A stretch of 64,000 nucleotides of DNA from Promethearchaeota archaeon. GTDB lineage: Archaea > Asgardarchaeota > Lokiarchaeia > Sigyniarchaeales > SOKP01. The translations under genes and the position numbers were made by a program. The notes beneath the pieces are model-generated. The model was not told the origin of the DNA. It saw only the letters and a program-made list of their open reading frames with translations, and did not search any database. Each line of letters starts with the position of its first letter. Position 1 is the stretch's first letter. Below, in pieces: positions 3,664 to 60,264 of this stretch. The DNA is taken from positions 434,001 to 498,000 of the forward strand of contig JAUWGH010000001.1 in the NCBI GenBank assembly GCA_030606485.1, read 5' to 3'.

Positions 3664-4845
3664 ATGGGCTCATTATACAGAGTAAGAAATTTTTGTCAAG
3701 GTTTAACAGAATTAGGTCATAAATGTTTTATATTTTCTCCGTATATTTTTTCTGAAGATTGGGGACCTTTAGTTAAATTTATTCAAATTCCTGTATTAAA
3801 ATCAAGAGGAAACATATCAAAACAAATTTATAAAATAATAAGATGGGTTCTGGATCTTCAATTCTTATCTCGTTATACAATATTACAACCAAAAATCCTA
3901 AATTCTATGATAAGTCGAGTTTCTCAGGGCTTATTTAATGTAATTAATTCAGAATTTATTTATCTAGATGTAATTATAGGAGAATCAGAGTTAGGTGGTT
4001 TAATGCTTATTCGAATAAAGGAAAAATTAAAAATTCCTATAATTGTCGATTTACAAAATTATTGGCCTGAAGAATTAGTAGAAAATAATATTATTAAGAG
4101 AAATCATAAACGCTATAAATTTCTAGTTGCTTTAGAAAAAAGTGTAATTGATAATGTGGATTTAGTTATAACTCCCAGTCTTGCCTTGAAAAAATTTCTT
4201 GCCAATAAATTTACTAATGGTAACTATTTAAAAATAAAAGCGATAATTAATGGGGGCATACCTTTTTTGGATAAACCTAAAAAAAAGGAATTTCCACCAA
4301 AAATAATTATGTCGGGATTAGTTGCTTATAGAAGCAATTATCAATTATTCTTAGAAAGCCTACCCTATGTGTTGAGAAAACATCCAGATACTCTAATTTA
4401 TGTAACTAGAAAAGGTGAAGATTTAAAAAAGATGATGAAATTAGCAAAAAACCGAAAAATTAAAATAAATTGGTACTGGAAAGCTTCATATAAGGAATTT
4501 CTTGACTTTTTAGCAGACTTTCATGTAGGTATAGTTACTTCATCACATAATTTATCGAGAAAATTAGGTTTTGTTACTAAAATATATGATTATTTTTCGG
4601 TCGGGGTTCCAGTTGTAGGAAATGATATTGGAGGTTGGACATCTTTAATCCACAAAGAGAAAGTGGGATTATTATCATCAAACGACCCTCAAGATTTGGC
4701 AAATAAAATTTTGCAATTTATTGACAATCCAGATATGTCATATGAGTATGGTGAAAGAGGAATTAAATTATTAAAGGACAAATATAGCGTAAAAAAATCT
4801 TCTCGAAATTTAATGGAGTGTATTGAACTAATCAATGATAATTAA
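3664..4845 (+). CDS. GT4-family glycosyltransferase; true N-terminus probably about 15 codons upstream
   Basis: GT-B fold C-terminal pattern (GFVTKIYDYFSVGVPVVGNDIGGW..). Upstream in-frame codons read FKINIGFLYLHPQGES before MGSLYR. Confidence 0.82.
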   Translation: MGSLYRVRNFCQGLTELGHKCFIFSPYIFSEDWGPLVKFIQIPVLKSRGNISKQIYKIIRWVLDLQFLSRYTILQPKILNSMISRVSQGLFNVINSEFIYLDVIIGESELGGLMLIRIKEKLKIPIIVDLQNYWPEELVENNIIKRNHKRYKFLVALEKSVIDNVDLVITPSLALKKFLANKFTNGNYLKIKAIINGGIPFLDKPKKKEFPPKIIMSGLVAYRSNYQLFLESLPYVLRKHPDTLIYVTRKGEDLKKMMKLAKNRKIKINWYWKASYKEFLDFLADFHVGIVTSSHNLSRKLGFVTKIYDYFSVGVPVVGNDIGGWTSLIHKEKVGLLSSNDPQDLANKILQFIDNPDMSYEYGERGIKLLKDKYSVKKSSRNLMECIELINDN

Positions 4846-4900: not shown

Positions 4901-5728
4901 TTGAATATTATCCTAAATCTTTTATATAAAGTTAGAAATTCTATTCCCAAGAGAATCTATAACATTATCATTGGAAAAATTAAGCGTTCAAACATTTTCA
5001 AGATAATAATTGGTTTACCTTATGGAGTATTGCTATTGTCAAAATCAAAAACCTATCCCCGATTAATACCATTAAGAAAAAAAATTTACCCTATACCAAT
5101 AAATATTTTAGATATTTCTTCACTTGATGCTTTTTGGGAAATTTTCATTGGAAAAAATTATGAAAAATATAATAAAATTAAATCTGGAGACTTGGTTTTA
5201 GATATTGGAGGAAATGTTGGAATTTTTACGATTAAAGCAGCACAAGTTGTTGGTGATAAAGGGAAAGTAATTGTTATTGAACCAGAACCTAATAATGTTA
5301 AATTAATTAAAGAAAATACTAAAATTTTTAATAATGTGACCATAATTCCTAAAGCTGTTGGAAGTAAATCAGGTAAAGTTGAACTTCTTATAGGGAAGCA
5401 CTCTGGTTCTCATTCAATATATACTGAAGACGATTATTCACCTAATGATAAAATAATATCAATCCAAATAGATCTTTTAGATAATATATGTAAAGAATTA
5501 ACCCTTAACTTGATTGACTTTATTAAAATTGATGTAGAGGGGTGGGAACTTGAAGTTTTGAAAGGTGCTATAAATTCTTTAGAAAAAATTAAATTTTTTA
5601 CAATTGCCTCATATCATTCAAAGGAAATAAGAAGCCAACTAACAAAATTTTTAGAAAATAATAATTTTAAGGTTATTAATGATGGAGGTTTAACTCATGC
5701 GTTTAATAACTTATATTTTACAAATTAA
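4901..5728 (+). CDS. FkbM-family methyltransferase
   Basis: LVLDIGGNVGIFTIKAAQVVGDKGKVIVIEPEPNNVKLIKENTK...LIDFIKIDVEGWELEVLKGA. Confidence 0.88.
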   Translation: MNIILNLLYKVRNSIPKRIYNIIIGKIKRSNIFKIIIGLPYGVLLLSKSKTYPRLIPLRKKIYPIPINILDISSLDAFWEIFIGKNYEKYNKIKSGDLVLDIGGNVGIFTIKAAQVVGDKGKVIVIEPEPNNVKLIKENTKIFNNVTIIPKAVGSKSGKVELLIGKHSGSHSIYTEDDYSPNDKIISIQIDLLDNICKELTLNLIDFIKIDVEGWELEVLKGAINSLEKIKFFTIASYHSKEIRSQLTKFLENNNFKVINDGGLTHAFNNLYFTN

Positions 5729-5851: not shown

Positions 5852-6112
5852 AAAATATATGATTATTTTTCGGTTGGTGTTCCAGTTGTAGGAAATGATA
5901 TTGGAGGTTGGACATCTTTAATTCGTGAAGAGAAAGTGGGTTTATTATCATCAAACGACCCTCAAGATTTAGCAGATAAAATTTTGCAATTTATTGACAA
6001 TCCAGACATGTCATATGAACATAGCGTAAGAGAAATTAATTTATTAAAAAAAAAATATAATGTGAAAGAAACAGGTAAAAAATTGATAAAATGCATTCAA
6101 AACATTATTTAA
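5852..6112 (+). pseudogene. 3'-terminal fragment of a GT4 gene (duplicate of the 3664..4845 tail)
   Basis: KIYDYFSVGVPVVGNDIGGWTSLIREEKVGLLSSNDPQDLADKILQFIDNPDMSYEHSVREINLLKKKYNVKETGKKLIKCIQNII*; near-identical DNA to 4579..4845. Confidence 0.88.
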
Positions 6113-12381: not shown

Positions 12382-15300
12382 ATGAAGAAAAAAAATATAG
12401 TAATCCTTTTTTTAACTATTTTTATCTTTATAATTACTTATTTTATTTCTTTAATAATTATCATAAATATTTTCTTTATAATTGGTTTAATTTTTTTTTC
12501 CATTACTTATTCTTTTTGGTTTTACTATTTTTTTTATAATTCTGACGAATCTAAAATTAGAATCATTAAAATATTTCGTTCGGGATGGTGGATTGAAATC
12601 TTAATAATATTTTTAATGCTATTAAGTTTGATGATTAATCCGCTTATAACTCCCATAGACAGTTGGCAAAACATCCCTTTTTTACTATATGTTCGCAGCA
12701 TAATATGGTTAATTGGATTATTATTTTTACCTGGTCATAATATATTTAGATTTTTTAAATTTTATACAAAATTATCAAATTCAATAAAATTTGTCGTATC
12801 GATTACTTTCTCTTTAATTTTTTTAGGTATTCTTACTCTCGTATTCCATTTTTATGATTTCACTTATTACTACATGCCGTTTTTCATTTTAATTTTTCTA
12901 ATTTTTACATCATTTTTATTTTGGAAAACACATAAAAAAAAAAAAAAACCATGTAATATCAATCAAGTTCACCAAGTGGGATCTAATACTTCTTTTATTT
13001 TCAATCTCATGTATATTTTTCGCTGGCGCTGTTCAATTATCTATGAATTATCTAATGCCTGGAGATGTTTGGACTTCAGTAAATTCTGCGACATTGATTC
13101 TTTCTGGTCAAAAGGAATTTTTTGAATCACTCGTTCCTGAATACCCAGTATTTTTCGGTTGCATTCTCTTTGGATTATCTATATCTTGCGGTTTTCCTTT
13201 TGTAAATACCTATGTTTTTCTTTTCCCATTAATAGCATTAAAATACGTGTGTTTTTTTTCCTTAATAAGGACATTGTTTCATCAAAATAAAAAAATCTCT
13301 GTATCTGCCACGATTTTTTACGGTTCAATGGAAGGTTTAGCATGGATAATTGGAGTTCTTACTTCTAAGCTTTCTGGTCATAATTTTTTTTGGGAGTTAT
13401 CTTATCGAACACAGGATATGTATTTTTCTGTTTTACTTGAATCAATTCAATTCCAATATAAAACTTTAGCAATTATAATGATTTTTACTTTTTTAATTTT
13501 ATTTACTTTAGGAGTAGAAGCTCATGTAAAAAAAAATAAAATTATTATTCTATTTTTCTCAACAATTTTTCTCTTATCTGCGTTTTACATTCATATGATC
13601 GAACTATTAATGATTCCTAGCATTTTTCTAATTACATTTTTATATGAATCTAAATTTAAAAAATTTTATAATATACTTTTTCTAATCTTGAATTTTTTAA
13701 TATTATTTATAATTCTTGACTTTTATATGAATGGTTATTACTCAAATCTATCTCTTTTAAAAGTATCATTACCATTGAATTATGTTTTTAGCCTTTTTGG
13801 ACTAACTCTAACTCAAGGTTTAATAATTTTTTCTTTAATTTTTATTTTTATTTTGGGAATGAGTTTTCTTATATTATTTTTATGTAAAAAAACATCAATT
13901 CGCTGTCTTTCAAAGATTCATATTCCGGAACAAAAGGTACAAAAATTAATGTTTGTCGCAAGAATCATTATTTTAATCCTAATATTTATATATGTAGGAT
14001 CAATTATCATATGGCTTAATCTTGACGATTCATATTATAATAATACACTTTTACATGCTGAAGAAACTATCTTGCCTTTTTTTATGTATTTTACAAGATG
14101 GGGCTTCATGGGTTTATTTGGTCTAATAGGAATTATGATATCTCCATGGAAGCAAAAATGGTTTAAGGTAGCAATTTTTTGGTTTTTAACTTCATTTATT
14201 ATAGGAAATATTTGGTGGGGTAGCGTAACAATTCAATTTCTTTTCCCTGTTTTGGCACTATTTGCTGTTATTGGCATAGAATTTTTAATTTCCAAGATTC
14301 CCTCATTAAACTGGAAAATTGGAAAGATCATCAAAAAATTTATCAAGAAAATTAAGTGGAAGGAAAACAATTTAAAACCAATTGAAACATGTGTAAAATT
14401 TATGAAGAAAATTAAGTGGAATAAAAACAATTTAAAACCAATTGAAACATGTGTAAAATTTATGTTTGTTATTGTGTTGCTTCTTGGCACATCATCGTAC
14501 ATTTATGGCACTAGCTATTATAGTCAACAAGAAAGTGTTACAAAAGATGAACAAGCACTTATTTTTAAATGGGTATATGAAAATGTTGAACAATCCTCAA
14601 CAATTTTAGTCCCTAATGATTACATATTTTATTTTGGAATAAATACCATATGTAATCGTACTACTTATATTTATACATCATTACCCAAAGAATTGAATTT
14701 TCCAAATATTCTTATAGTTAAGCAGATTTTTCAACAAAAAAGCATAAAATATGCTATTTTAGGAGAAGATTTAACACCATTAATGAAAGAAATTAAAGCA
14801 GATTCATTATTATTAGAAGATTATGGAACTTGGAAAATATATAAAATAATAATAATTTCTGGGACGTATATTGATTTTGTAGATGCAGATGGCTCTGATG
14901 CAAATTGTACTATTTCCATAGTTGCAAATAAAGATGGACATAAAAAAGTATTGAAAATTTTAGATAATAGTAATACTGGACAAATTAATTTTCATCATTA
15001 TTTTGATGCTCCACAAACTACTGGTATAATAGAATTTTATAGTTATGCAGAACAAACAGATAAACAAATAGGCTTTCCTTTTAAGGCTGTTGATTGGGGA
15101 TATGCAGTTTATCCTTTTATGGACTCTGATGGAAATTTTAAATATTCTCATGATGGTTGGAACGCTGTAACAGTACAATCATATAATGCTAATCAGTGGT
15201 ATCATCATAAAATTGTTTTTGATTGTGAGGGAGATTCTGGCTGGGGAACTTTTGATTGGTATATAGATGGAGTAAAGAAAGTCACAGCAGGAAGATTTTG

Positions 15301-15448
15301 GGGAGATACAGATAATATATATAGATGGTGGTTCTATACAGAAAATATACCTATTGATGCTGTTTTTTATTTTAATGCTATTGATTTTAGTTGGGCTTCT
15401 GGATATTATGATGGAAGAAATAAAGACGTAATATTGGACAGATTTTGA
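12382..15448 (+). CDS. GT-C/DUF1616-like multi-pass membrane protein with appended C-terminal beta-sandwich (lectin-like) module; split into ORFs 12382..13125 and 13043..15448 by a frameshift in an A15 tract
   Basis: ORF1 has ..SIIWLIGLLFLPGHNIFRFF... Reading frame 2 upstream of 13043 gives KWDLILLLFSISCIFFAGAVQLSMNYLMPGDVW, continuous with ORF2. C-terminus NANQWYHHKIVFDCEGDSGWGTFDWYIDGV..FYFNAIDFSWASGYYDGRN. Confidence 0.75.
12934..12948 (+). repeat. A15 homopolymer at the frameshift site
   Basis: cat-aaaaaaa aaaaaaaa-cc read directly; the frame change between the two ORF halves is required near here. Confidence 0.85.
14341..14460 (+). repeat. Tandem duplication, 2 x 60 bp (20 aa), in frame
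   Basis: tat(c/g)aagaaaattaagtggaa..aaaacaatttaaaaccaattgaaacatgtgtaaaatt twice; (K/x)KIKWxxNNLKPIETCVKFM x2; 57/60 match by eye. Confidence 0.95.
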
Positions 15449-22733: not shown

Positions 22734-25700
22734 TTAAATAGGTGCATAATAGACTGAAAAACCTTGATATTCATATAATTTCGTGTTAAAAAATTTTGAT
22801 ATTAAATCATCTTGAATATTTATTTTTCCAGCTTCGCTATTAAACAAAGTTTCTTCTTCAGAAAGAATGAGATATCGAATATTTTCTCGTTCTAAATAAT
22901 TAATTACCGTTGGTCCTAAAAAAATACAATTTTCTACATTGAAATCTGGCTCCCAAGAAAAATTAAATGCATCAAAATAAAAATCCCATCCAGAACAAAT
23001 CGTGCTTGAGAGAAATCTCATACCATCTATTTGAGAAACATTATTCCAGAAAATAAAATCACCATATTTTATATCATCAATAAAGAAATTCCATTTGTAT
23101 TGGTTTAATCCATTATATCCTCCAATAGAACATTCAAAGTCAATCCTAATATGATACCATGTGTTATTTTGTATATCTATGATTTTTTGATATTTATTGC
23201 CATTATAACTATAAATTGCACTCGAAATATTAAGTATAATTGGATTTTTTAAGCTCGAATAATCTAAATATTCTATACAAAAAAAGTTCGATACATCCAT
23301 AGTTCTAATGTAAAAATTAATAGTTCCATATTTCTGAGCAGAATCAAATTTAAATTGGAATTTTATTGAACCTGTTTTATTCTGATCTTCACATTTCAAA
23401 ACATTACAATGTCCATCTAATTCATCAATTATCCCAATCTTACAATTAAAATCACTTTCATTAATGAATTCCCAATCCCAACAATCTTTTTCCTGTAATG
23501 CAGTTTCAATTATTTTATTAATATAATATGCATTACAATCTGTCATATACTCTAACATCCTTTTTTTATCACTAGACCTAGATAAAAACGAACAATCAAT
23601 TGAAATATTAGACCGACGTGGAATATGTTCCGATATCCAACCTACTACTTGAGCTTCAGAATCTGAATAACCTCCAAAACCACTTTTATAAGAACATGCC
23701 CAATACATTCCTCCCAAAATAAAACTCGAAAATGATAAAACAATAAATATTGAGACTGATGAAAAATCAAAAATGTGTCTTAATTTTTTTCTTTTTATTA
23801 AAAGCCTACTATTTTTAAGTTTTTTCGTTAGTTTTATTAAGCCTATTGAAGCCATAATAGAAAAGGCTGGTATAGAATAAAACCAAATTCTATCAAACCA
23901 ATAAGTCATCAATAGATAGTCATATCCAGGTATTTCTTGAGGTATAGCAAAAGGATAATCTAAGAAAAATAATTTAAAAATAAGAATAGATGCTAATCCC
24001 AATGAAAAAAGAATCCATGATATTAAAACATAAAATAATTTTTTATTTTTTTTAAAACAAAAATAAGATAGATTTACAGCTAAAATACCAATAAATCCAA
24101 TATTTGTAAAGATTAACTCTATGTAAAATATTAAAAAATCTTTATTACTTAAATTATAATCAAGAAAAATTTTTTCTAGTATAATATTATATATTTCTAT
24201 TATTAAAAAGATAGAAAAAATAGTTAAAATAAATATAAAAATATTTTTTGCACTAGTTTTTATTCTCAACCTTTTTTTTAATTCAGAAACTTTTATCCAC
24301 AAAAAATTTTTTCTATATTGAGACTTTTTTTTTATATGGAAATATTTATCATATAATCTTTGAAGAATTATATAAAAAATGAAAACTCCCCCTAACACTG
24401 AATATATTAAAAAAGCCCTTATATTTTTTGGTATATCCAGTAAATTTGGAAAGAATCTAAAAAACTTATTAAGTTCTATTAAAAAGATATTACTTAAATA
24501 GAAGTATGTTAATAAATCAAAAAGAATTAAGAATAAAAAAATTAAAAATATAAAAAGAAAAAAAATCTGAATTTTTTTTTTTATTTTTTCTGAAAACAAA
24601 CAATAAAGGAGAATTAGATATAACCCTGCCATAAAAGGGAGTAAATAAATCATATAACTATGAATTAAAAAAAGAGCTCCAAGAATTAAAATTTTAAAAT
24701 CTTCAGTTTTTAACATTTGTTTGGTTTTAATTATTTTATTTGTATTAAATATAATAAAAAATAATGCTAATGAAGAAAATAATAAAAAATAACTATAGCT
24801 TTTATACCGAAAGAAAAAAACAAAGTCTTGTATTAAGGGTGACGTGTTTTCCAATCCTAAACCAGAGGTATAAAATAAACTTGAAAATGTTACCCCTAAA
24901 ATTGTGGATAAAATGATATATTTTTCTTTAAAATTATATAAAATAGCCTTTATAAACAAATATACAGAGGTTATAGATAAATAACAAAAAGGAGCTAACA
25001 TTGCATTAATATTAATATAAGGAAAACCACATAGAGCGCTTAAAGCGAAAGAATTATAACCCCAAAATAATAGATAATCATATTTTCTTTCAACTGGACT
25101 TGGATCTAAGGATCCAATATATTTGGCGGGACTTATACCAATCCAACTGTCCGAACCAACAAGATATTTTGCATTAATTTGAATTCCTAGAGAAATTAAT
25201 AGAATTCCTAATGCTACAACCAATATAATTAATGTATATTTCGAGATAGTGATTTCCACAATTTTTTCATCAATATTACCATTTCTCATCTTTTGAATAA
25301 TTAAATCAGAAAAAAATAAACCTAAAATTAATAAAAATAAAATTATTGTAATAGAATCTCTCAGAAATCCAATTTGGTCGAGTATTAAAACAGATGTACC
25401 TAAAAAAATAAGTGATAGAAGGGGATAAAGAGTAATTTTTATAATAAAAGGCTCGACTTTAAAGCGTTCATGAAGTGTATTTTTAGGAAAAAAAATTTTG
25501 AATAAGTTAGCTCCTGGAAGAAATAAACAACCAATCAAAAAAGAAATCGCTCTAAAATAATTAAGGATTCCAACTTGATTCCAATCAACAACAGTTGTCG
25601 TAAAGGAGATAGGAGGAATAAAAATGGTTATGCTCATAATTATCATGAGAATAATTTTAATAGAATTTTCCGACAAAAATCTAAATTTAAATAATATTTT

Positions 25701-25916
25701 ATTCTCATTATCGAGTTCAAAAATCATAAATGAGAAAAAAACAACGATAATTATTGCAAACCCTATGTATAAAAGAAATGGCATTCTATCGAAATAATTA
25801 AGGGGTTTAATGTATATTTGAGTTAAAAATAGTAAAAAGGCAACAATAAATACAAAAATAAAGAAAAAAATGATGGATTTTTGAAGAATGCTTCTATTTT
25901 CTCTCAATTTTAGCAT
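22734..25916 (-). CDS. GT-C/DUF1616-like multi-pass membrane protein with an internally inserted beta-sandwich (lectin-like) module
   Basis: N-terminal FRAISFLIGCLFLPGANLFKIFFPK; C-terminal extracytoplasmic part contains GHCNVLKCEDQNKTGSIKFQFKFDSAQKYGTINFY..NTWYHIRIDFEC..KWNFFIDDI..DFYFDAFNFSWEPDF between GT-C segments, then INYLERENIRYLILSEEE. Confidence 0.8.
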   Translation of the reverse strand: MLKLRENRSILQKSIIFFFIFVFIVAFLLFLTQIYIKPLNYFDRMPFLLYIGFAIIIVVFFSFMIFELDNENKILFKFRFLSENSIKIILMIIMSITIFIPPISFTTTVVDWNQVGILNYFRAISFLIGCLFLPGANLFKIFFPKNTLHERFKVEPFIIKITLYPLLSLIFLGTSVLILDQIGFLRDSITIILFLLILGLFFSDLIIQKMRNGNIDEKIVEITISKYTLIILVVALGILLISLGIQINAKYLVGSDSWIGISPAKYIGSLDPSPVERKYDYLLFWGYNSFALSALCGFPYININAMLAPFCYLSITSVYLFIKAILYNFKEKYIILSTILGVTFSSLFYTSGLGLENTSPLIQDFVFFFRYKSYSYFLLFSSLALFFIIFNTNKIIKTKQMLKTEDFKILILGALFLIHSYMIYLLPFMAGLYLILLYCLFSEKIKKKIQIFFLFIFLIFLFLILFDLLTYFYLSNIFLIELNKFFRFFPNLLDIPKNIRAFLIYSVLGGVFIFYIILQRLYDKYFHIKKKSQYRKNFLWIKVSELKKRLRIKTSAKNIFIFILTIFSIFLIIEIYNIILEKIFLDYNLSNKDFLIFYIELIFTNIGFIGILAVNLSYFCFKKNKKLFYVLISWILFSLGLASILIFKLFFLDYPFAIPQEIPGYDYLLMTYWFDRIWFYSIPAFSIMASIGLIKLTKKLKNSRLLIKRKKLRHIFDFSSVSIFIVLSFSSFILGGMYWACSYKSGFGGYSDSEAQVVGWISEHIPRRSNISIDCSFLSRSSDKKRMLEYMTDCNAYYINKIIETALQEKDCWDWEFINESDFNCKIGIIDELDGHCNVLKCEDQNKTGSIKFQFKFDSAQKYGTINFYIRTMDVSNFFCIEYLDYSSLKNPIILNISSAIYSYNGNKYQKIIDIQNNTWYHIRIDFECSIGGYNGLNQYKWNFFIDDIKYGDFIFWNNVSQIDGMRFLSSTICSGWDFYFDAFNFSWEPDFNVENCIFLGPTVINYLERENIRYLILSEEETLFNSEAGKINIQDDLISKFFNTKLYEYQGFSVYYAPI

Positions 25917-25949
25917 TTTTTAAGTTAATTTTGTATAATTTAATAATCT

Positions 25950-26077
25950 CTTTTATTTCTAAAATTTTATTTCAATTTTAAAAACATACATTTTATTTGA
26001 ATGAAAATCCTTCTATAAGAGAATCTCTATGTCTTTTTAATTTTAACAAATCCAATAGGAAAATTAAATCATTTTTT
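25950..26077 (-). pseudogene. 3'-end remnant of a wzx gene (duplicate of 31359..31492)
   Basis: ttatttgaatgaaaatccttctataagagaatctctatgtctttttaattttaacaaatccaataggaaaattaaatcattttt nearly matches the 3' end of 31407..32915. Confidence 0.88.
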
Positions 26078-26102
26078 ATTCACTTCTAATATGACAAATT
26101 TC

Positions 26103-29100
26103 TCATCTTTTAATGATCCTCTTGTTATACTTTATAAAATACCGTATAAATAGAATTATAGAAAATAAGCATATGATTATTGAAAGAGTTAAAATCAAAA
26201 CTAAACCATTATTGACAAAATTATCATTGACTAAATAAATAATACTATCGCTAACCATATCTGACTCTCCGAAGACATTCTTAAATTTTACAGATATTGT
26301 ATATTTAGTATTATTCTCAGAACCACTAATATTTATTTGTTTTGATGTGTTATAAATTTCCCAATCTGACCAAGATCCATTACCAATCTTGAAACACATC
26401 TCATTTGCATATGTTGAATATAATGTAAGATTTACTAATGTGTTGTTTGTGTAGATATCTCCGTTATTTATCGATATCGATGGATTTAAAGGTAAAAAGA
26501 TGTTTTTGTATATGATATCATCACTAACTATATCGGATTTCCCAAGATCATTTCTGAATTTCACGAATATTGTATATTCTGTGTTATTGACAGATCCATT
26601 TAGATATAAATGTTTTGATGTCTCGTAAGATTCCCAAATAGACCAAGAACCAGTATTATTCTTAAAACATACCTCGGTTGCATAAGTAGAAAATAATGTT
26701 AAGAATACCAATGTATCGTTTGTGTAGATATCTCCGTTGTTTATTGTCATCTGACAGACAGGATATATTGAATATCCGATATTTTTTAGATATAGTTTTC
26801 CATTAGTTATATTAAATTTTAAATTATATCCGATCTCTATTGTAGGATCAAAATGGAAACTATAATTAAAAGAATGATAAATTCCATCTACGGACAATGG
26901 AAATATATTATTATTTATTAATATATCAGCAAAATAAGAATATTTTGTATTATTGATGAATTTATAATTAAACCTTATTGTCATATCATACTTTTTATTA
27001 CAATCATCGTATACATCACCTTTAATATTTTTTTCTATTGTTGAATATTGATCCTCTGAAATTTTTATCCATTTATAATTTACACTTAAGTTTTCCAGAT
27101 ATAATTCAAAATCATTGGGTGTGTTTAATCCATAGAAATTTAATAAAATATCATTTGTAGAATTAATATGAGAAGAATTTAGAGGAAATGTATTTTCATT
27201 AAACGAAACATTATTGGTCGAACTATCAATTAGTTCCCATGAGTTTGAATCAAAATTCCAAACCGAAAAATCGATTAATTGGTTAACATTCGTTTTGTAT
27301 GAATAGGTTAGATTAAATGGTATTATATAGTTATCTTGTTTATCTAAATCTAATACCTCAAATGAGTAGTTTAGATTATTATTAATAGAATAATATACAT
27401 CATTATACCAACGAATATATCCTGCATATAAATCCGAATCACGGCTTATATGCCAATCAGCATCCTCATTAAAATAATAAAGATATTCGTTATGAGAAAT
27501 CTTTATTAATTGTGGATAACCACCTAATCGATCTCCCCAAAAACATATTTTTGGATCTTCCCATGCACTTGCATTATTAAAAACTGTTTGAGCATCGGAT
27601 ATTGAATATTTCTGATAACTCCGATAAAGTGGATGTCCCGCAATACTTCTATCTCTATACATTACGATAACTTTATCGGTTTCTTTGTCATATTCTATAT
27701 ATGATGGTTTTACACCACTACCATCTCCGAGATTTGTATATGTTATTTTACTCCAAGTCTCTCCATTATCAGAACTTGTGGTTTGTGCCACATAATTTCC
27801 ACCATATTCTTCTCTTATTAAGCCTATAAATCTTCCATTTCCTATATGTGTTATGGTTGTTTCATACCAATTATGACTTCCGTTATACAATATTGGTCCC
27901 TTCTCCCAAGTTTTTCCATAATCCGTTGTTTTAAGCAAATTTGTTGTATATATATTATCTGTTTCATTGAAACAATGTAATACTCTATAATATGTTCCCG
28001 ATACATTACTTGATTTGAGATTATCATAATAACTGAATATATTGGGATAAATATTCATAATACTTACGAAATCACTCCATTTTTCTCCTTCTAAACCATC
28101 TAATGAATATATATATCCCCGAGAACCATTCATATGATCTACAAATAGGAAGATAGTGTCATTAATTACACCGCCTTTTCCAGAGGGAAGTGTTTCATTT
28201 GTCCATAATAAAGTAAGATTCTGAGTTGTAAGATTAAAACGAAACTTTGCCATTTTTCTATCATCAATATAACCATGTTTCGATCCTATATTGCCATAAA
28301 AGTCTATTTCGTCTGATCCTTTTCTTATAGCAGTTTTCATATCATCATAAGTATCCGAATCCCGGACACGAAATGTATATGCTTCCCACATACCTGAACT
28401 TTTTATTCCATATCCGAATTGAGAATTAAAAATATTATTATTAAGATTAGAAGACCCATATTCGGTATCGGTTAATTCTTTTATATAATGAGGCATTTTC
28501 CGATCGGTTATTTGCCAATACTTAGAATCCCAAGAATAATAAATATCATCTATATATGCAAAATTATCAACATCATTATTTGAAGCAATAATTGTTATAT
28601 GATCCATTGCTATCGGATTTCCTTTAATTTTAATCATATCATTATAACCTAATATTATTCCTGTTTTGTTATCTTTTTTTATAATAACATCATAATATCC
28701 TTCTATACAATCAAAAGAAATTTCTATATAATACCATTGATTTGCGTTGAAATCACATATTTTTCCGTATATATTATATTCATAACTATACCATCCATTT
28801 ATATGATGTTTTATCTTTAATCCATTTTCTATAATTCCATTATATATATAAATAAAATGATTATCAGTAAGATCATTCATTGTTGCTCTAAATAGTAATG
28901 ATATACTTCCAGAAACTACACTTTCTGAAAAGATATTAGATATATTACAATTAATTCTATCATCATTATCATAAAGTTCGACAACATTACTATGGTTATC
29001 TAAATCTGGTATAACTTGAATCGATGTATTCCCAGATTCGGAAACATACCACCTATTAGGATTAGAACCTATACGATCATTAGAAAAATCATATGTGGTG

Positions 29101-29339
29101 AGATAAGAAGGGTTTGTAAAATTTATATTATGAAAATCATTTGCCGTATTTAGGCTTTTATCTATATTATAAGTGGAATTATATCCATCAAGACGTAAAT
29201 CGTTATCTATTTCTCCCGTTTCTGAGTAGACTATCTGGGAATGAATATTATCATAAAATGAAATAAATATGGGAGTAAAAAATATTAAAAAAATAAAGAT
29301 AAACCTAATATCTTTTTTCGATACCAATTCTTTCACCAT
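26103..29339 (-). CDS. Secreted/TM-anchored surface protein: signal peptide, lectin-like module, sialidase-like (Asp-box) region, two Ig/FnIII-like repeats, C-terminal TM
   Basis: N-term IRFIFIFLIFFTPIFISFYDNIHSQ; Asp-box-type motifs TTDYGKTWEKGP and SSDNGETWSKI; tandem repeats SINNGDIYTNNTLVNLTLYSTYANEMCFK..GSWSDWEIYNTSK; C-terminal VLILTLSIIICLFSIILFIRYF plus basic tail. Confidence 0.75.
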   Translation of the reverse strand: MVKELVSKKDIRFIFIFLIFFTPIFISFYDNIHSQIVYSETGEIDNDLRLDGYNSTYNIDKSLNTANDFHNINFTNPSYLTTYDFSNDRIGSNPNRWYVSESGNTSIQVIPDLDNHSNVVELYDNDDRINCNISNIFSESVVSGSISLLFRATMNDLTDNHFIYIYNGIIENGLKIKHHINGWYSYEYNIYGKICDFNANQWYYIEISFDCIEGYYDVIIKKDNKTGIILGYNDMIKIKGNPIAMDHITIIASNNDVDNFAYIDDIYYSWDSKYWQITDRKMPHYIKELTDTEYGSSNLNNNIFNSQFGYGIKSSGMWEAYTFRVRDSDTYDDMKTAIRKGSDEIDFYGNIGSKHGYIDDRKMAKFRFNLTTQNLTLLWTNETLPSGKGGVINDTIFLFVDHMNGSRGYIYSLDGLEGEKWSDFVSIMNIYPNIFSYYDNLKSSNVSGTYYRVLHCFNETDNIYTTNLLKTTDYGKTWEKGPILYNGSHNWYETTITHIGNGRFIGLIREEYGGNYVAQTTSSDNGETWSKITYTNLGDGSGVKPSYIEYDKETDKVIVMYRDRSIAGHPLYRSYQKYSISDAQTVFNNASAWEDPKICFWGDRLGGYPQLIKISHNEYLYYFNEDADWHISRDSDLYAGYIRWYNDVYYSINNNLNYSFEVLDLDKQDNYIIPFNLTYSYKTNVNQLIDFSVWNFDSNSWELIDSSTNNVSFNENTFPLNSSHINSTNDILLNFYGLNTPNDFELYLENLSVNYKWIKISEDQYSTIEKNIKGDVYDDCNKKYDMTIRFNYKFINNTKYSYFADILINNNIFPLSVDGIYHSFNYSFHFDPTIEIGYNLKFNITNGKLYLKNIGYSIYPVCQMTINNGDIYTNDTLVFLTLFSTYATEVCFKNNTGSWSIWESYETSKHLYLNGSVNNTEYTIFVKFRNDLGKSDIVSDDIIYKNIFLPLNPSISINNGDIYTNNTLVNLTLYSTYANEMCFKIGNGSWSDWEIYNTSKQINISGSENNTKYTISVKFKNVFGESDMVSDSIIYLVNDNFVNNGLVLILTLSIIICLFSIILFIRYFIKYNKRIIKR
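26233..26765 (-). repeat. Two tandem copies of a ~85-aa extracellular repeat inside 26103..29339
   Basis: TINNGDIYTNDTLVFLTLFSTYATEVCFKNNTGSWSIWESYETSKHLYLNGSVNNTEYTIFVKFRNDLGKSDIVSDDIIY vs SINNGDIYTNNTLVNLTLYSTYANEMCFKIGNGSWSDWEIYNTSKQINISGSENNTKYTISVKFKNVFGESDMVSDSIIY. Confidence 0.9.
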
Positions 29340-29572
29340 GATAATTTACTTCCCCATTTTATTCCGTAGTCTTCAAACATATACCAAGACATTGCATCAT
29401 GATAATATCTGGTTTTATAGGTTCTACCTACATAATTCTTTTCTTCAAATCTCCAGATAGAAAATTTACAATATAATTTCCATAATTTAAATGAAAGATT
29501 ATAAAATGTTTTATTTCTTTTTGTAACTCTTGAAATCCAATATAACAATTCCCGTATAATCCAATACTTCAT
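29333..29572 (-). CDS. Small basic/aromatic-rich hypothetical protein (79 aa), overlapping the start of 26103..29339
   Basis: MKYWIIRELLYWISRVTKRNKTFYNLSFKLWKLYCKFSIWRFEEKNYVGRTYKTRYYHDAMSWYMFEDYGIKWGSKLSW; same strand, short overlap with the downstream gene. Confidence 0.5.
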   Translation of the reverse strand: MKYWIIRELLYWISRVTKRNKTFYNLSFKLWKLYCKFSIWRFEEKNYVGRTYKTRYYHDAMSWYMFEDYGIKWGSKLSW

Positions 29573-29735
29573 TTTTTACCACATCAATTCCAATTCTAAC
29601 TCTATCTCATAATTCTCTGGCTCTTTTTTGGTTGATATAATAATATATCTCTTTTCTTTACTGTATATTTTTTTATTAATTATAATTATTGTATTTAGCC
29701 TTATTCTTTTTTTTCCTAACTCACTCACTTTTTAA

Positions 29736-30110
29736 TCACTTCCATTTAATTTCATAATTATCCAAATTTTCAAATTCTTTATCATCTTTCATAAGTTTTT
29801 TAAATCTTTCAAATTTTTTTCGTGATTGTAATATTTTTTCAATTTCTTTTATTCTTGATATTGCCGTTAAGACTTCTGTTAAATTAAAGTAATTAGGCAA
29901 AAATATTGAAAAAAGCAAATCTCCACTAAAAAAAACAATTAAAATGAGAGAAGGGAACAGAATTGAAAAATATTTTTCGAAAGTATGGGAAATTCTTTCT
30001 ATTAATGATATTTTCTCTTCTTCAAAATATTGGGAATAAATTACATGACTTAATGGGATTATTTTTGTAGATTCAATTATCATATTCCTCTTTGGCTGAA
30101 CTATAATCAA
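29736..30110 (-). pseudogene. Chimeric ORF: internal wzx fragment (about 29881..30057) fused to an unrelated charged C-terminus
   Basis: SHVIYSQYFEEEKISLIERISHTFEKYFSILFPSLILIVFFSGDLLFSIFLPNYFN is almost identical to a segment of 31407..32915; then TAISRIKEIEKILQSRKKFERFKKLMKDDKEFENLDNYEIKWK. Confidence 0.85.
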
Positions 30111-30141: not shown

Positions 30142-31302
30142 TTACAAATTTTTATTCAACAAATCAAAAATTTTTTTTGAGGATTTACCATCTCCGTAAG
30201 GATTTATAGCATTAGCCATTTTGAAATATTTTTTTTCCTCCGTTACAAGCGTTATAGTCTCTTCTACAATATTTTTTTTATTTGTTCCAACTAATTTTGC
30301 AGTACCAGCATCTACACCTTCCATCCTTTCAGTAACATCTCTAATTACTAAAACAGGTTTCCCTAGCGTGAGTGCTTCTTCTTGAACTCCTCCTGAATCA
30401 GTCAAAATAATGAGTGATTTACTCATTAGCCAGACAAAATGAGGATAAGTTAATGGATCTATTAAGTGAACATTCTTTATTTTAGAAAGGATACTATAAA
30501 CCGATTTCTTTATGTTTGGGTTTAAATGAACTGGACAAATTATTTCAAAATCAGGCAATTTTTCAGAAATTTCTTTAATTGCATAGCAAATATTTTCTAA
30601 AGGTTTTCCAAAACTTTCTCTTCTATGACACGTAATCAAAATTATTTTTGATTTACGCAAATTAATATTAGTTAAAATTTCCAAATTCGTAATAATTGAT
30701 TCTTCAAGTTCAGGATTATTTTCAATGATAGCTTTTGTTTGTAAAATCGCATCAATAACAGTATTTCCTACAATCCATACATTTTTTTCTATTCCTTCTT
30801 TCATTAGATTATCTTTCGCTTTATTTGTTGGAACAAAATGGTAATCGCTTATGTGATCAATTAAAACCCTATTAATTTCTTCAGGAAATGGTGAGTATTT
30901 ATTAAAACTTCTTAAACCGGCTTCTATATGAGTGATCTTTATTTTTTTATAAAAACCTGCTAATGCACCTATAAAGGCAGTTGTTGTATCTCCTTGTACA
31001 AATATTAGATTTGGATTACAATCATTAAGAACTTCTTCTAGGTTTTTAAGACCATTTGCAGTAATATCAAAAAGAGATTGGTTTGGTTCCATTAAATTCA
31101 AATCATAATCTACTTTTATATCAAAAAATGATAATATTTGATCCAACATCTCTCTGTGTTGCGCAGTAATACAGATTTTTATTTCATATTCAGAATATTT
31201 CCTAAATTCCTTAATTAAAGGCGAAATCTTTATCGTTTCAGGACGTGTTCCAAAAATAAACAAGATAATAGAAACGTTATTTTGGTTAATTGATGATTCC
31301 AT
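30142..31302 (-). CDS. wecB: UDP-N-acetylglucosamine 2-epimerase (non-hydrolysing)
   Basis: IILFIFGTRPETIKISPLIKEF..FVQGDTTTAFIGALAGFYKKIKITHIEAGLRSFNKYSPFPEEINRVLIDHISDYHFVPT..ILITCHRRESFGKPL..ILTDSGGVQEEALTLGKPVLVIRDVTERMEGVDAGTAKLVGTN. Confidence 0.96.
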   Translation of the reverse strand: MESSINQNNVSIILFIFGTRPETIKISPLIKEFRKYSEYEIKICITAQHREMLDQILSFFDIKVDYDLNLMEPNQSLFDITANGLKNLEEVLNDCNPNLIFVQGDTTTAFIGALAGFYKKIKITHIEAGLRSFNKYSPFPEEINRVLIDHISDYHFVPTNKAKDNLMKEGIEKNVWIVGNTVIDAILQTKAIIENNPELEESIITNLEILTNINLRKSKIILITCHRRESFGKPLENICYAIKEISEKLPDFEIICPVHLNPNIKKSVYSILSKIKNVHLIDPLTYPHFVWLMSKSLIILTDSGGVQEEALTLGKPVLVIRDVTERMEGVDAGTAKLVGTNKKNIVEETITLVTEEKKYFKMANAINPYGDGKSSKKIFDLLNKNL

Positions 31303-31406
31303 AGCGTGTCCCTATTAATTATTCGATAAACTATAAAAATTGCTTTTATTAAATGTAGGAATCTTTTATTTCTAAATTTTTATTTCAATTTTTAAAAATA
31401 TTCATT

Positions 31407-32915
31407 TTATTTGAATGAAAATTCTTCTATAAGTGAATCTCTATATCTTTTTAATTTTAACAAATCCAATAGGAAAATTAAATCATTTTTACGTAATTGT
31501 TTAAAAACAATTAATTCACCAAAAAATATTCCTAGAATTACAAAAATTGAAACAATTAGCAGTAAAAATTGATTTCCAATTAAAAAATTTAGTATGAAAT
31601 GTTTTATTAAAAATGAGATTAATAGGGAAGAGAGCGCAAAAATAATATGCGAAAGAATTATTTTTTGGGATGTAATATTGAAAAATTTTTTTGAAAAATA
31701 TCTATTAAAAATTAAAAATATGAAATATGGTATTGTTGCTGCAAGTGCATATCCTATTGTCCCTAATCCAAACAAATTAAAAATTAAAAAGTTTTCGGGG
31801 ATAAGAATAATCATCAACAGAAAAGTTAGAGATAAGAAAACAATATTCAAAGACGCGATCATATGCTGTTTTTTACCGGGTACCATGAGATTTCCATAAG
31901 GAGTTGAAGTTCCATAAATATATGGAATAAATATCATGATATACAATATTGGCAGGGAATTAAAGTAATTAGGTAAAAATATTGAAAAAAGCAAATCTCC
32001 ACTAAAAAAAACAATTAAAATGAGAGATAGGAACAGAATTGAGAAATATTTTTCAAAAGTATGGGAAATTCTTTCTATTAATGATATTTTCTCTTCTGCA
32101 AAATATTGAGAATAAATCACATGGCTTAAGGAAATTAAACTATTGGGTATCAGTAATATTAATGTAATAATTTGACTAATCAGAGATATTTGGGCAAGGG
32201 CTGCATGTCCAAAAGAAAAATCTAAAATGATATTATTGAAATTAATAACAAACACAGCCAATACTGAATTTATAATAAAAGGTTTTGTTTCTTTTAGGTA
32301 GTTCAAAGCCATTTGTTTTTGAGGTTTTTTTATAATAATCTCATTTTTAGACAAGATTAAAATTATAATTAGGAGAAGGAAATCAAATCCAAACTCAATA
32401 ATTCCAATAAACAATAGTGGATTAGAGATATTTGAAAGATTAAAGGCAAGAATTATTATTGAGGTGGATTTCCCTGAATTAATGAAAAAAAAAGGCAGTT
32501 CAGATTTGAAAATCTTTTTTCTTGCTATTAAATTATCCAGGAAAATACGAGTTAAGGAGAATGTAATTTTTGATAATAATAGTAATATAATAAAAAGAGA
32601 ATAATAGCTATTCCATAATTGAAATATTGTTATTAAAATGAGTGTAAAACAAATGCTCTCTATTATTAAAAAAAATCTGATTAGGAAAAATGTGCTGAAA
32701 TATTCATCAAAATCTTTTTTAATAGAATATCTAAAATGAATATTTTTGAATCCCATTTCTCTAAAAATAAATCCTAGTTCAATAAAGCTCCTAAATAGAA
32801 CCAAAATGCCCATTAATTCTATCTCAAGATTTAAAAAAAGAAAAAAAACAGCAATGGTGTATATTATATGATGTCCTAATTGAGAAACGACAGTAATAGT
32901 AAATTTTTCTTTCAT
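31407..32915 (-). CDS. Polysaccharide flippase (Wzx/MVF superfamily)
   Basis: 502 aa, multi-TM, Wzx-like; source-like sequence for two remnants elsewhere in the window. Confidence 0.85.
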   Translation of the reverse strand: MKEKFTITVVSQLGHHIIYTIAVFFLFLNLEIELMGILVLFRSFIELGFIFREMGFKNIHFRYSIKKDFDEYFSTFFLIRFFLIIESICFTLILITIFQLWNSYYSLFIILLLLSKITFSLTRIFLDNLIARKKIFKSELPFFFINSGKSTSIIILAFNLSNISNPLLFIGIIEFGFDFLLLIIILILSKNEIIIKKPQKQMALNYLKETKPFIINSVLAVFVINFNNIILDFSFGHAALAQISLISQIITLILLIPNSLISLSHVIYSQYFAEEKISLIERISHTFEKYFSILFLSLILIVFFSGDLLFSIFLPNYFNSLPILYIMIFIPYIYGTSTPYGNLMVPGKKQHMIASLNIVFLSLTFLLMIILIPENFLIFNLFGLGTIGYALAATIPYFIFLIFNRYFSKKFFNITSQKIILSHIIFALSSLLISFLIKHFILNFLIGNQFLLLIVSIFVILGIFFGELIVFKQLRKNDLIFLLDLLKLKRYRDSLIEEFSFK

Positions 32916-35150: not shown

Positions 35151-35186
35151 AATTCTATATCTAAGTGATATCAGTAATACGTTTTA
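35151..35186 (+). repeat. Direct repeat unit A flanking the GT2 gene 35251..36063 (unit B at 36306..36340)
   Basis: aattctatatctaagtgatatcagtaatacgttt vs aattctacgtttaagtgatatcaataataggttt; 29/34 identical by eye. Confidence 0.7.
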
Positions 35187-36063: not shown

Positions 36064-36246
36064 AATCAAAATAAACTCTAATTCAAATAATTAAATTAAC
36101 TGCATAAAATTTTAAATATTGAGCTTTTTCTTTGAAAAATTTAATGCTTGAGAACGTGAGAGAAAAATATCTATAATTAATTCTTTTCTCTCTTGGAAAA
36201 ATAAATCTGAATTTATAGAAAACATAAGAAATAATAATAATTTAAA

Positions 36247-36305
36247 TGGATGCATAATAGACGGTATCATCTTGATATTCATATAATGTCGTGTTAAAAA
36301 ATTTT
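36247..36305 (-). pseudogene. 3'-end remnant of a GT-C gene related to 22734..25916
   Basis: Reverse strand: FFNTTLYEYQDDTVYYASI* vs FFNTKLYEYQGFSVYYAPI* at the C-terminus of 22734..25916. Confidence 0.8.
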
Positions 36306-36549
36306 AATTCTACGTTTAAGTGATATCAATAATAGGTTTACTGATATTACCACAGTAAGGTTTTTTAAGAATTCGAGCTAGCATGTAATTATCATTCTGA
36401 GCTTAAAGATTATTTAAAATAGTTAAAAAATAGTAATTATACGATTTGAATGTTTTAATTTTGTTAAAAATTTACAAAATATGCTTTTAAGAAAAACTTT
36501 AAAGAATCTTTTTTAATAAATTACTTAATTATTAAAAGTCTAAGTTAGT

Positions 36550-57008: not shown

Positions 57009-57067
57009 TCGTTATTTTTTAAAATTTCTCAAACTTTTTTATTAAAATTTTAAAGATATAATATATT

Positions 57068-57195
57068 CTATAAATTCCCTTTTACAATTTGAGACCAATT
57101 ATATTTATTTTTAACCATAACTAATGCATTATTTCTTAATTTAATCTTTTTTTTTATTTTCAAAAATCGTATAAAGCCAAATGGTTGAGCAAGAA
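57068..57195 (-). pseudogene. 3' tail of a GT4 glycosyltransferase, minus strand
   Basis: ILAQPFGFIRFLKIKKKIKLRNNALVMVKNKYNWSQIVKGNL*; the end resembles GT4 C-termini (..V.NKYNW..I..). Confidence 0.6.
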
Positions 57196-57201
57196 TGACG
57201 A

Positions 57202-57425
57202 GATTCGATACAGCATAATGAAAACGGTTGGTTATTAGAACAAAATAATGCGGAAACCCTAGAAAAACTTATAGAGAAAGTTCTTTCTGACGATGAAAAG
57301 TTTAAAAAAAAATGAGACAAGCAGCTCGTAAAAGAGGTGAATTTTTTTCTGAATATAAATTTGGCAAGAGTGTTATTGAATTTTTCGAGATGCTAATAGA
57401 AAAATACAATTTAATAAAAAAAGAA
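57202..57425 (+). pseudogene. 3' tail of a GT4 gene like 60652..61818, with a poly-A frameshift near 57304..57312
   Basis: DSIQHNENGWLLEQNNAETLEKLIEKVLSDDEKFKK / MRQAARKRGEFFSEYKFGKSVIEFFEMLIEKYN vs DTITHNKNGWLLKENNAKNLGKLIEKVLSDNKKLKLISQGALKKSEFFSKNNFRQRIVDLYENLIEKYN. Confidence 0.87.
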
Positions 57426-57439
57426 TACCTTTTAAAAAA

Positions 57440-58933
57440 TCATATTTTTATGTTTAAACCTCTAATAGCATGCATGATTTTAGACTTTTCATTAGATTCG
57501 ATAATGCTTTGTAAGTGTTTATTTTTTATATCCCTGAATTCATCAACTAAATTAGAATTTTGTTTTATCAAATTAATTTTTTCCCCTTGATCTTCTATTA
57601 AATTGTATAAATATTCTTCATTCTTTTCTTCATCATAAATATATTTCCAAGTCTTCTTTCTAATAGAAAATATTTTATATCCTAACTTGCTGTTTCTTCT
57701 AAATCTTCCTGCTTTTTGATATGACTCTGAAATAACAAAATCTTTTCGATTTATTTCTCTATCTTGCATTATAGGAAATAAATTTCTTCCTTGGAATAAA
57801 TTGGGTATTATTACTCCAAAATAATCTAATATTGTAGGAGCAATATCCATCAATTGAACCATTTCACTAATTCTTTTTATTTTGGGTTTTTTTCCAAGTT
57901 CAATTATGAATAGGGGAACTCTTAAAAGTTCATCATAGACCTGACCCCCATGACTTAAAAATTTATGTTCATAAAATGATTCCCCATGGTCGGCAGTAAT
58001 AATAATTAGACAATGTTTTTTAAATCTCTTGATAAGATAATTAAATAGCTTACCTAGCTGCTCATCAACGTAATTAATTTCACCATCATACAGATCAATT
58101 AATTTATTTAACATTTCGGGAGTCATTTGATTTTTATGGCTCCAAAAAAGGTTATTTAATAAAAAATCACTCTCATTTGCGTCTATACTGTTTTTTCTGA
58201 ATTTTAATAAATTTTTTAATGGAGGGTTATATGGCCAATGAACATCCATAAAATGAGCCCAAATAAATAGAGAGCGTGTTGAGTTAAAATTTTCAATAAA
58301 ATTAATTAATTTTTTTACGATATATGATGCGGTAAATTCTTTACGATTAATAAGAGTAATATTATCCCTTAAAAAATCTATATTATTAAGGATACTTCTA
58401 ATTTTTTCACATCTTGCAAGATGATTAATTATTTTAAAAAATATCTTTTTAAAAATTATATTTCTTAAAAACTTAGAAATATGATTCATAATTAATTCTT
58501 TAATCATTAAGGGTTTTTTACCACTCATATCTCCTTTTTTTTTAATATCTATTTCATGGTTTAATTCTAATGAGTCTAAAAAAATATCAAATCCACGATG
58601 ATAATTAAAAAACCTTCCTAAGTTAGGATTACTATGGATTCCATAGCATATAATTTTATTTTCATTCAATACTTGAGGAAATGTTATTTTTTGGTTAGGT
58701 AATGGACTAAAATCTCCATTTAAATAAGGAAGAATTGAAGTAAATATTGAAGAAAATGAAGATGATGTTTCTGGACCATTAGCAATAGCGTTTGAAAAAG
58801 ATACACCGTTCTTAACAAATTTCTCTAGATTTGGTGCAGTATTTCGGTGATATTTATTTATTCTCAAATGGTCGGGTCTCAAGCAATCTATAGTAAGAAA
58901 AATTACGAGTTTTCGCTTAGAATTATGTGTCAT
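57440..58933 (-). CDS. Alkaline-phosphatase/sulfatase superfamily hydrolase or phosphotransferase
   Basis: VIFLTIDCLRPDHLRINKYHRNTAPNLEKFVKNGVSFSNAIANGPETSSSFSSIFTSILP..LIIITADHGESFYEHKFLSHGGQVYDELLRVPLFI. Confidence 0.88.
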   Translation of the reverse strand: MTHNSKRKLVIFLTIDCLRPDHLRINKYHRNTAPNLEKFVKNGVSFSNAIANGPETSSSFSSIFTSILPYLNGDFSPLPNQKITFPQVLNENKIICYGIHSNPNLGRFFNYHRGFDIFLDSLELNHEIDIKKKGDMSGKKPLMIKELIMNHISKFLRNIIFKKIFFKIINHLARCEKIRSILNNIDFLRDNITLINRKEFTASYIVKKLINFIENFNSTRSLFIWAHFMDVHWPYNPPLKNLLKFRKNSIDANESDFLLNNLFWSHKNQMTPEMLNKLIDLYDGEINYVDEQLGKLFNYLIKRFKKHCLIIITADHGESFYEHKFLSHGGQVYDELLRVPLFIIELGKKPKIKRISEMVQLMDIAPTILDYFGVIIPNLFQGRNLFPIMQDREINRKDFVISESYQKAGRFRRNSKLGYKIFSIRKKTWKYIYDEEKNEEYLYNLIEDQGEKINLIKQNSNLVDEFRDIKNKHLQSIIESNEKSKIMHAIRGLNIKI

Positions 58934-58963
58934 TTTAATTAAAAATTACTTTAATCATTTATT

Positions 58964-59098
58964 CTATATGGGATTATTATCACTCACAATAATTTCAATT
59001 TCATTGCTTTGAGAAGTAATTATCTGATTGATAATGTTATTAATTCTTTCTGGACGGTTGTACGAAGGCAAACAAAAGCTAAGCAATACCTTAGACAT
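58964..59098 (-). pseudogene. N-terminal fragment (44 aa) of a GT2 glycosyltransferase
   Basis: MSKVLLSFCLPSYNRPERINNIINQIITSQSNEIEIIVSDNNPI*, matching a GT2 nucleotide-binding start and ending where the family would continue. Confidence 0.8.
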
Positions 59099-59106
59099 GA
59101 TTATTT

Positions 59107-60264
59107 TTAGATTTTTTTAATTGTAATAAGTTTTTTTATATTTTCTTTTATTTTATATTGTTCTCTCGCACTATCTCCTTTTTTCAAAAGAGAATAAAGA
59201 GAGAAGCCATTTTTGCTTTTAATATCAAGTTTTTTTCCAATCAAATCGTTAATTGTATGAATTAAATCAAATAGTGTAACTTTCCTATGATATTTTTTAC
59301 CTCCAAACTCGTTATTAGGGAATTTTATTAACAACGGGATCTCCTTTTGCAATTCAAACCGACCATGATGGTAGAAAGCATAAAAATCCCATTTACAACT
59401 AAATCTGCTTTTTATATCTGGAAGAAATTTAATAAATTTATGAATTACATTGTATTTCTCATAAATAAAAAAAAGTTTTTTTGTTAAATATCTTCCTATA
59501 TCACCTAAACCTTCACCGTGATCAGAGGTAATTATAATCATTGAATCATCATACATTTTATTTTGCTTTAATAATGAGATTAATTCTCTAACATATATAT
59601 TAATAAGTTCGTAAATTCTCGTGGAATAAGCTTTTTTTACAAATTTTTCGGTTAACTCTTTATTTATAACCCTTTTTAATAGTTTTTTCCCGATCTCAAT
59701 ATAACTTTTGCCTTCAATTTTATTTTTTAAATAATTATTAATGCCATAAATAAAATGAGCATTCCAAAAATGCAGAAAAATAAAATTGTTTTCATCCTTA
59801 TTGATATTTATATATTCCTCCCATTTATTGGGGATATTTCGATCTTCATCATCTGCTGCCCCATAATAATCTTCAAGCGTATCTCCATATAATTTTTTAT
59901 TCCAATTCGATTCCGGTACCATTCCTAAATCATTTATCATTTCATCACGGAAAGGTCTATAGTTTTTTATGTAAGGTTCCACAATATGTTTAAGGGGGTA
60001 TCCGTTGATAATTGCACTATTACAGAAAGAACGTGTTTTAAATCCCAACTTTTTTAATTGAGCTGGAAAATTTTGATTTTTTGCTTTATTGAAATAATCA
60101 CCGAAAAACATTGTATAATGAGAGATAAATGTAGCCGTATATATCGAATAGCAATTAGTAAAATCTACAAAATTATTTTTTAATTCATCTAAAGTGTTTT
60201 TAATCTTATTAAAAAAAAAATCTCTTCTAACGCTATCAAGAACTATAAGTATAATATTTTTCAT
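59107..60264 (-). CDS. Alkaline-phosphatase/sulfatase superfamily protein
   Basis: MKNIILIVLDSVRRDFFFNKIKNTLDELKNNFVDFTNCYSIYTATFISHYTMFFGDYF..SMIIITSDHGEGLGDIGRYL..YHHGRFELQKEIPLLIKFP. Confidence 0.87.
   Translation of the reverse strand: MKNIILIVLDSVRRDFFFNKIKNTLDELKNNFVDFTNCYSIYTATFISHYTMFFGDYFNKAKNQNFPAQLKKLGFKTRSFCNSAIINGYPLKHIVEPYIKNYRPFRDEMINDLGMVPESNWNKKLYGDTLEDYYGAADDEDRNIPNKWEEYININKDENNFIFLHFWNAHFIYGINNYLKNKIEGKSYIEIGKKLLKRVINKELTEKFVKKAYSTRIYELINIYVRELISLLKQNKMYDDSMIIITSDHGEGLGDIGRYLTKKLFFIYEKYNVIHKFIKFLPDIKSRFSCKWDFYAFYHHGRFELQKEIPLLIKFPNNEFGGKKYHRKVTLFDLIHTINDLIGKKLDIKSKNGFSLYSLLKKGDSAREQYKIKENIKKLITIKKI

Follow-up and report, generated by a model that had tools for sequence, protein, structure and literature searches.

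Insertion with long target duplication, in which the inserted genes come to lie within a long direct repeat of their target, is known from the restriction-modification genes of Helicobacter pylori (Nobusato et al. 2000, as cited in PMC1643837 and PMC3031569). In fungal mitochondria, mobile ORFs replace the 3′ ends of genes, as in atp6 of Allomyces and in atp6, atp9, cox2, and nad3 of Glomus (PMC3630166), and for plants, repeat-flanked gene circles that integrate by homology have been proposed (Woodhouse et al. 2010, PMC2869330). PMC8813620, which deals with the mobile elements of Asgard archaea, contained none of the terms sought for such duplications.

Two wzx-derived repeats in a surface-glycan cluster

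The window, i.e., the whole stretch of 64,000 nt that was analysed, comprises positions 434001–498000 of contig C10 of a Lokiarchaeon genome of 3.75 Mb in 13 contigs, and holds a large surface-glycan cluster with glycosyltransferases, nucleotide-sugar enzymes, flippase-like proteins, a carbamoyltransferase, and sulfatases. An intact gene on its minus strand (31407–32915) encodes a wzx-like polysaccharide flippase of 502 aa with homologues in 13 of the 79 genomes of the order. The protein resembles Wzx/MurJ-type polysaccharide flippases in being a polytopic membrane protein encoded within a glycan cluster, and differs from them in that it has no Pfam or NCBIfam match itself, although some homologues match Polysacc_synt (the Wzx flippase profiles PF01943 and PF13440, Polysacc_synt among them, were matched by 3/13 and 2/13 homologues). 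An AlphaFold model computed without an alignment had a mean pLDDT of 46 and was set aside.

Self-BLAST of the window confirmed a duplication described in the earlier note, i.e., that the 3′ end of wzx and an internal piece of the gene recur on the minus strand in the correct order, and shifted the coordinates given there (25950..26077 and 29881..30057) by a few bases at most. Positions 29882–30061 repeat 31958–32137 (wzx codons 260–319) over 180 nt at 93.3% identity with 12 mismatches and no gaps (271 bits). Positions 25949–26076 repeat 31362–31490, i.e., the wzx 3′ end and 45 nt beyond the stop codon, over 129 nt at 94.6% identity with 6 mismatches and 1 gap (198 bits). The best score in 100 Markov-shuffled sequences was 37 bits, which rules out chance for both repeats. 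Outside both blocks, ungapped identity drops at once to background (0.1–0.45). Neither the intervening wzx stretch of 467 nt (31491–31957) nor the wzx 5′ half (32138–32915) has a second copy in the window, and the whole genome assembly holds no wzx-like sequence beyond the intact gene and the two remnants. A collapsed assembly is an unlikely source of the remnants because the copies differ by 5–7%.

The intact gene is followed by a gene for a WecB-like UDP-GlcNAc 2-epimerase (386 aa; 30142–31302, minus strand; PF02350, E 2e-120), and 80 nt separate the stop codon of wecB from the start of the remnant tract, which corresponds to wzx codon ~260. Its internal block is open and lies inside a spurious 124-aa ORF (29736–30110); no clear relatives were found for the 48-aa tail fused to it. 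The 3′-end block lies 27 nt after the stop codon of a sialidase-like gene and 33 nt before its downstream neighbour, a gene for a multi-membrane protein of 1060 aa (22734–25916, minus strand). Between the two blocks, 3,805 nt (26077–29881) stand in place of the 467 nt of wzx.

Collinearity, the common strand, and equal divergence from the intact gene (12/180 vs 6/128, Fisher p = 0.62) fit a single wzx-derived tract split by about 3.8 kb, and the collinearity suggests one contiguous displaced half, the middle of which would have been lost. Where a second wzx copy split by about 3.8 kb of cargo had been proposed in the earlier note, the single interrupted tract is thus retained, while the missing 5′ half makes it a split 3′ half instead of a split copy. 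Alternatively, two independent insertions could have occurred at wzx, e.g., one with wecB and one with the sialidase-like gene, so that the remnants never formed one tract. The 129-nt block by itself has the standard form of gene, insert, and copied 3′ end, and successive remnants of one gene are known from the locus C8:203543 (see below), which has two; the correct order, the same strand, and the equal divergence of the blocks make this reading quite improbable, as does the 180-nt block, which ends inside wzx, unlike a simple 3′-end displacement.

As the earlier note had it, a surface protein of 1078 aa (26103–29339, minus strand) and a small ORF (79 aa; 29333–29572, minus strand) lie within the 3,805-nt interval; the latter had no relatives at E < 1e-3 in 65 family genomes. 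The 1078-aa protein matched BNR_2 (E 3e-7; 30.7 bits, slightly below the cut-off of 31.4) and the PDB neuraminidases 3h6j and 2w38 (E 4e-7), with a BNR/Asp-box region at ~446–660, in which two Asp-box-like motifs were read in the sequence. An N-terminal hydrophobic segment and a C-terminal transmembrane segment were read likewise, a pair of tandem repeats is found at the C-terminus, and the label of a LamG-like domain at ~78–275 stems from sequence reading with no profile match. The protein is probably a BNR-propeller/Asp-box sialidase-like protein, and sialidase activity is a guess. It shares the C-terminal domain of the 1060-aa protein. A phage origin was rejected, as the phage collection gave no match. 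Single open frames of 11,600–14,800 codons in four family genomes (G034:C3, G025:C47, G044:C48, and G007:C163) have domains in common with the 1078-aa and 1060-aa proteins.

No transposase was found among the ORFs of the interval and no inverted repeats of at least 30 nt at its ends, so the segment does not have the make-up of a composite or IS-type transposon. In the wzx insert, no endonuclease, toxin-antitoxin, or recombinase gene was found, and its ORFs gave no match to LAGLIDADG, GIY-YIG, or HNH. A diversity-generating retroelement, with the 3′ end as variable repeat and a template repeat nearby, was rejected, as the mismatches are not adenine-specific and the interval ORFs have no reverse-transcriptase Pfam match.

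Divergence of the remnant and its proposed origin

In the 180-nt block, 9 of the 12 differences are synonymous and 3 nonsynonymous, where a nonsynonymous fraction of 0.76 is expected under neutrality (p = 3e-4); the three coding differences of the 3′-end block (2 nonsynonymous, 1 synonymous) are too few for a neutrality test. The synonymous bias implies that most of the divergence arose while both alleles were functional and under selection, and in the 180-nt block it rules out a recent in situ duplication. A recent event, concluded in the earlier note from the high DNA identity, is not supported in view of these synonymous differences and of the family-consensus E273, which is kept in the remnant and replaced by A in intact wzx. 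The remnant's loss of function does look recent, since there are no in-frame stops and changes at conserved columns are L296P, Y491H, and E498G. Judged from the sequence, the two alleles would be old functional paralogues or, as we prefer, alleles of different lineages.

The former would follow from a tandem duplication of the whole gene around wecB, with both copies functional for a while, until the 5′ half of the downstream one was deleted and the sialidase segment interrupted the rest. Collinear remnants and the synonymous bias suit such an old functional paralogue; we nevertheless consider this course unlikely, because it requires an extra 5′ deletion that ends directly after wecB and a 5′ half that leaves no trace.

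With moderate confidence, we instead regard the remnants as the displaced native 3′ half of a single wzx, produced by insertion with long target duplication. An incoming segment, about 7% diverged and made up of wzx aa ~258–502 (codon ~258 to stop) and wecB, would have integrated into wzx through one-sided homologous recombination, in a Campbell-type or one-ended manner. Its foreign 3′ half would complete wzx, so that the intact gene would be a chimera from about codon 258, while the native 3′ half would be pushed downstream of wecB, with a target duplication of at least 776 nt. The displaced half, now unselected, would later have exchanged 467 nt for 3.8 kb with the sialidase-like gene and so have been split. 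This model accounts for the synonymous bias, for the lack of a second 5′ half, and for a tract that begins 80 nt past the end of wecB. We infer that wzx underwent such an event, the order of the steps, and that wecB arrived in the same segment; the intact 3′ half would, on this model, be foreign. Direct repeats of 93–95% identity still flank both wecB and the insert as a whole, and deletion by recombination between them may be possible, which is a guess.

An uninterrupted allele, for which a comparison with related genomes had been suggested in the earlier note, was not found: all four congeners lack a wzx homologue, a search of the named genome contigs confirmed no wzx relatives there, and none of the 13 homologues in the order (30–43% identical), each with a different gene set around it, represents such an allele. 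The closest of them is 42–43% identical and lies in another gene neighbourhood.

Displaced gene ends elsewhere in Lokiarchaeal genomes

Among end-type remnants in 1.66 Mb (four sampled stretches of three Lokiarchaeal genomes), about 18 of 22 were 3′ ends and 4 were 5′ ends (binomial p = 0.004), with classes assigned by eye, some remnants not independent, and the bias noticed post hoc. An excess of ~18:4 in four stretches is not expected from the random decay of full duplicates, which also weighs against a whole-gene duplication of wzx.

A proven analogue lies in the same genome as wzx, at C8:320064–323738. Downstream of a gene of 135 aa (A) come two ABC transporter genes, a 146-nt copy of the 3′ end of A, and a further gene (C). 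In the congeners G001, G002, and G003, A adjoins C with a single A 3′ end, i.e., the site is empty. The displaced remnant is 98, 97, and 93% identical to the native A 3′ end of these congeners, and the intact gene's own 3′ end 85, 84, and 83%. As the remnant is closer to the native end than the intact gene is, the 3′ end that now completes A is foreign and came with the insert, by which the native end was displaced. The transporter genes are located elsewhere in G001 and G002. Repeat-like sequences upstream of the inserted transporter (in C8:320001–323800) also flank these transporter genes in G002; they are possibly the ends of some element.

At C8:203543, a gene has two remnants, and a MazE/PIN pair lies between it and one of them; this remnant is 80 and 78% identical to congeners' 3′ ends and the intact end 75 and 72%. 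In G002 (C299, 2472–3395 of the extracted piece), the counterpart of this gene, which is AMP-ligase-like, is separated from a displaced 3′ end by a LAGLIDADG endonuclease gene, and the displaced end is ~99% identical over 165 nt to the intact end at C8:203543. This insertion is a direct archaeal parallel to the mitochondrial mobile ORFs. The remnant loci C10:322594 and C10:552718 are not conserved in the genus when compared with congeners, and the remnant cases of G015 could be followed in relatives only up to a contig end or a loss of homology.

One locus bears on a further explanation of the wzx remnants, namely a tandem duplication of the wzx 3′ part with its downstream gene, selected for the latter, after which one downstream copy was replaced. 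A genuine case exists nearby, with C10:300123–301795 copied as 302063–303511 and paralogous genes 73.5% identical. It is, however, the sole one among 18 remnant cases with a clearly homologous downstream pair in the expected position, and the 1060-aa gene after the wzx remnant is unrelated to wecB, so we hold a duplication of this kind to be highly unlikely for wzx.

Partial copies of other gene 3′ ends, and one further repeat, were observed in the window. At 5852–6106, the C-terminal 85 aa of the glycosyltransferase 3664–4845 recur (89% over 219 nt, with identity high on the 5′ side and falling towards the 3′ end), and a gene for an FkbM-type methyltransferase (4901–5728) lies between. Positions 57202–57410 are the displaced 3′ end of the glycosyltransferase 60652–61818, with two sulfatase genes between (57440–60264); beside this displaced end, a second 3′-end remnant (~57060–57174) derives from the gene C10:499808–500956, outside the window. 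At 36220–36308, 13.5 kb away from the 1060-aa gene, its 3′ end recurs next to a GT2 gene, which has a 34-nt direct repeat on either side (35151–35184 and 36306–36339). Inside an 801-aa ORF (13043–15448), a 70-nt unit occurs twice with 96% identity and a 10-nt overlap (14335–14464).

Relation to known systems and meaning for gene gain

The likeness to the H. pylori case lies in inserted genes bracketed by long, directly repeated target sequence, which at wzx consists of the 129-nt and 180-nt repeats on the same strand. There, a single target copy is seen in another strain; here, the counterpart is seen at C8:320064, and wzx is absent from the congeners. The genes involved also differ, being mainly restriction-modification genes in H. 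pylori and transporter, metabolic, toxin-antitoxin, and glycan genes in the archaeon, and the Lokiarchaeal repeat is, unlike that in H. pylori, usually the 3′ end of a gene.

As with the fungal mobile ORFs, the intact gene at C8:320064 ends in foreign sequence while its native end is displaced downstream, and the identity signature there (93–98% for the native vs 83–85% for the inserted end) compares with 91–98% vs 64–81% in fungi (PMC3630166). The fungal inserts encode a homing endonuclease, whereas none was found at wzx or C8:320064 and a LAGLIDADG protein is encoded in the G002 copy of C8:203543. Since the wzx insert has no endonuclease, we do not claim that it belongs to the mobile-ORF class. 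The plant gene circles are similar in that ordinary genes lie between genic direct repeats and insertion is explained by homologous recombination; they differ in concerning plant nuclear genes, and circles are hypothetical in both cases.

The proposed wzx insertion would have an already known form; of greater interest is that such remnants recur in Lokiarchaea. We tentatively propose, as a possibility short of an expectation, a recurrent and possibly recombinase-free mobility in Lokiarchaea, in which single genes or small operons would travel with a copy of a neighbouring gene's 3′ end and insert into that gene. The foreign 3′ end would repair the gene and the native one would stay behind, and gene gain across these genomes would be marked by hybrid genes and 3′-end scars. 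Such a scar, a native 3′ end displaced next to a gene that ends in foreign sequence, would make gene gain readable in Asgard archaea. If general, variable surface-glycan loci would gain epimerases, sialidases, and sulfatases without transposases, and some Asgard genes would be hybrids, which would affect gene trees.
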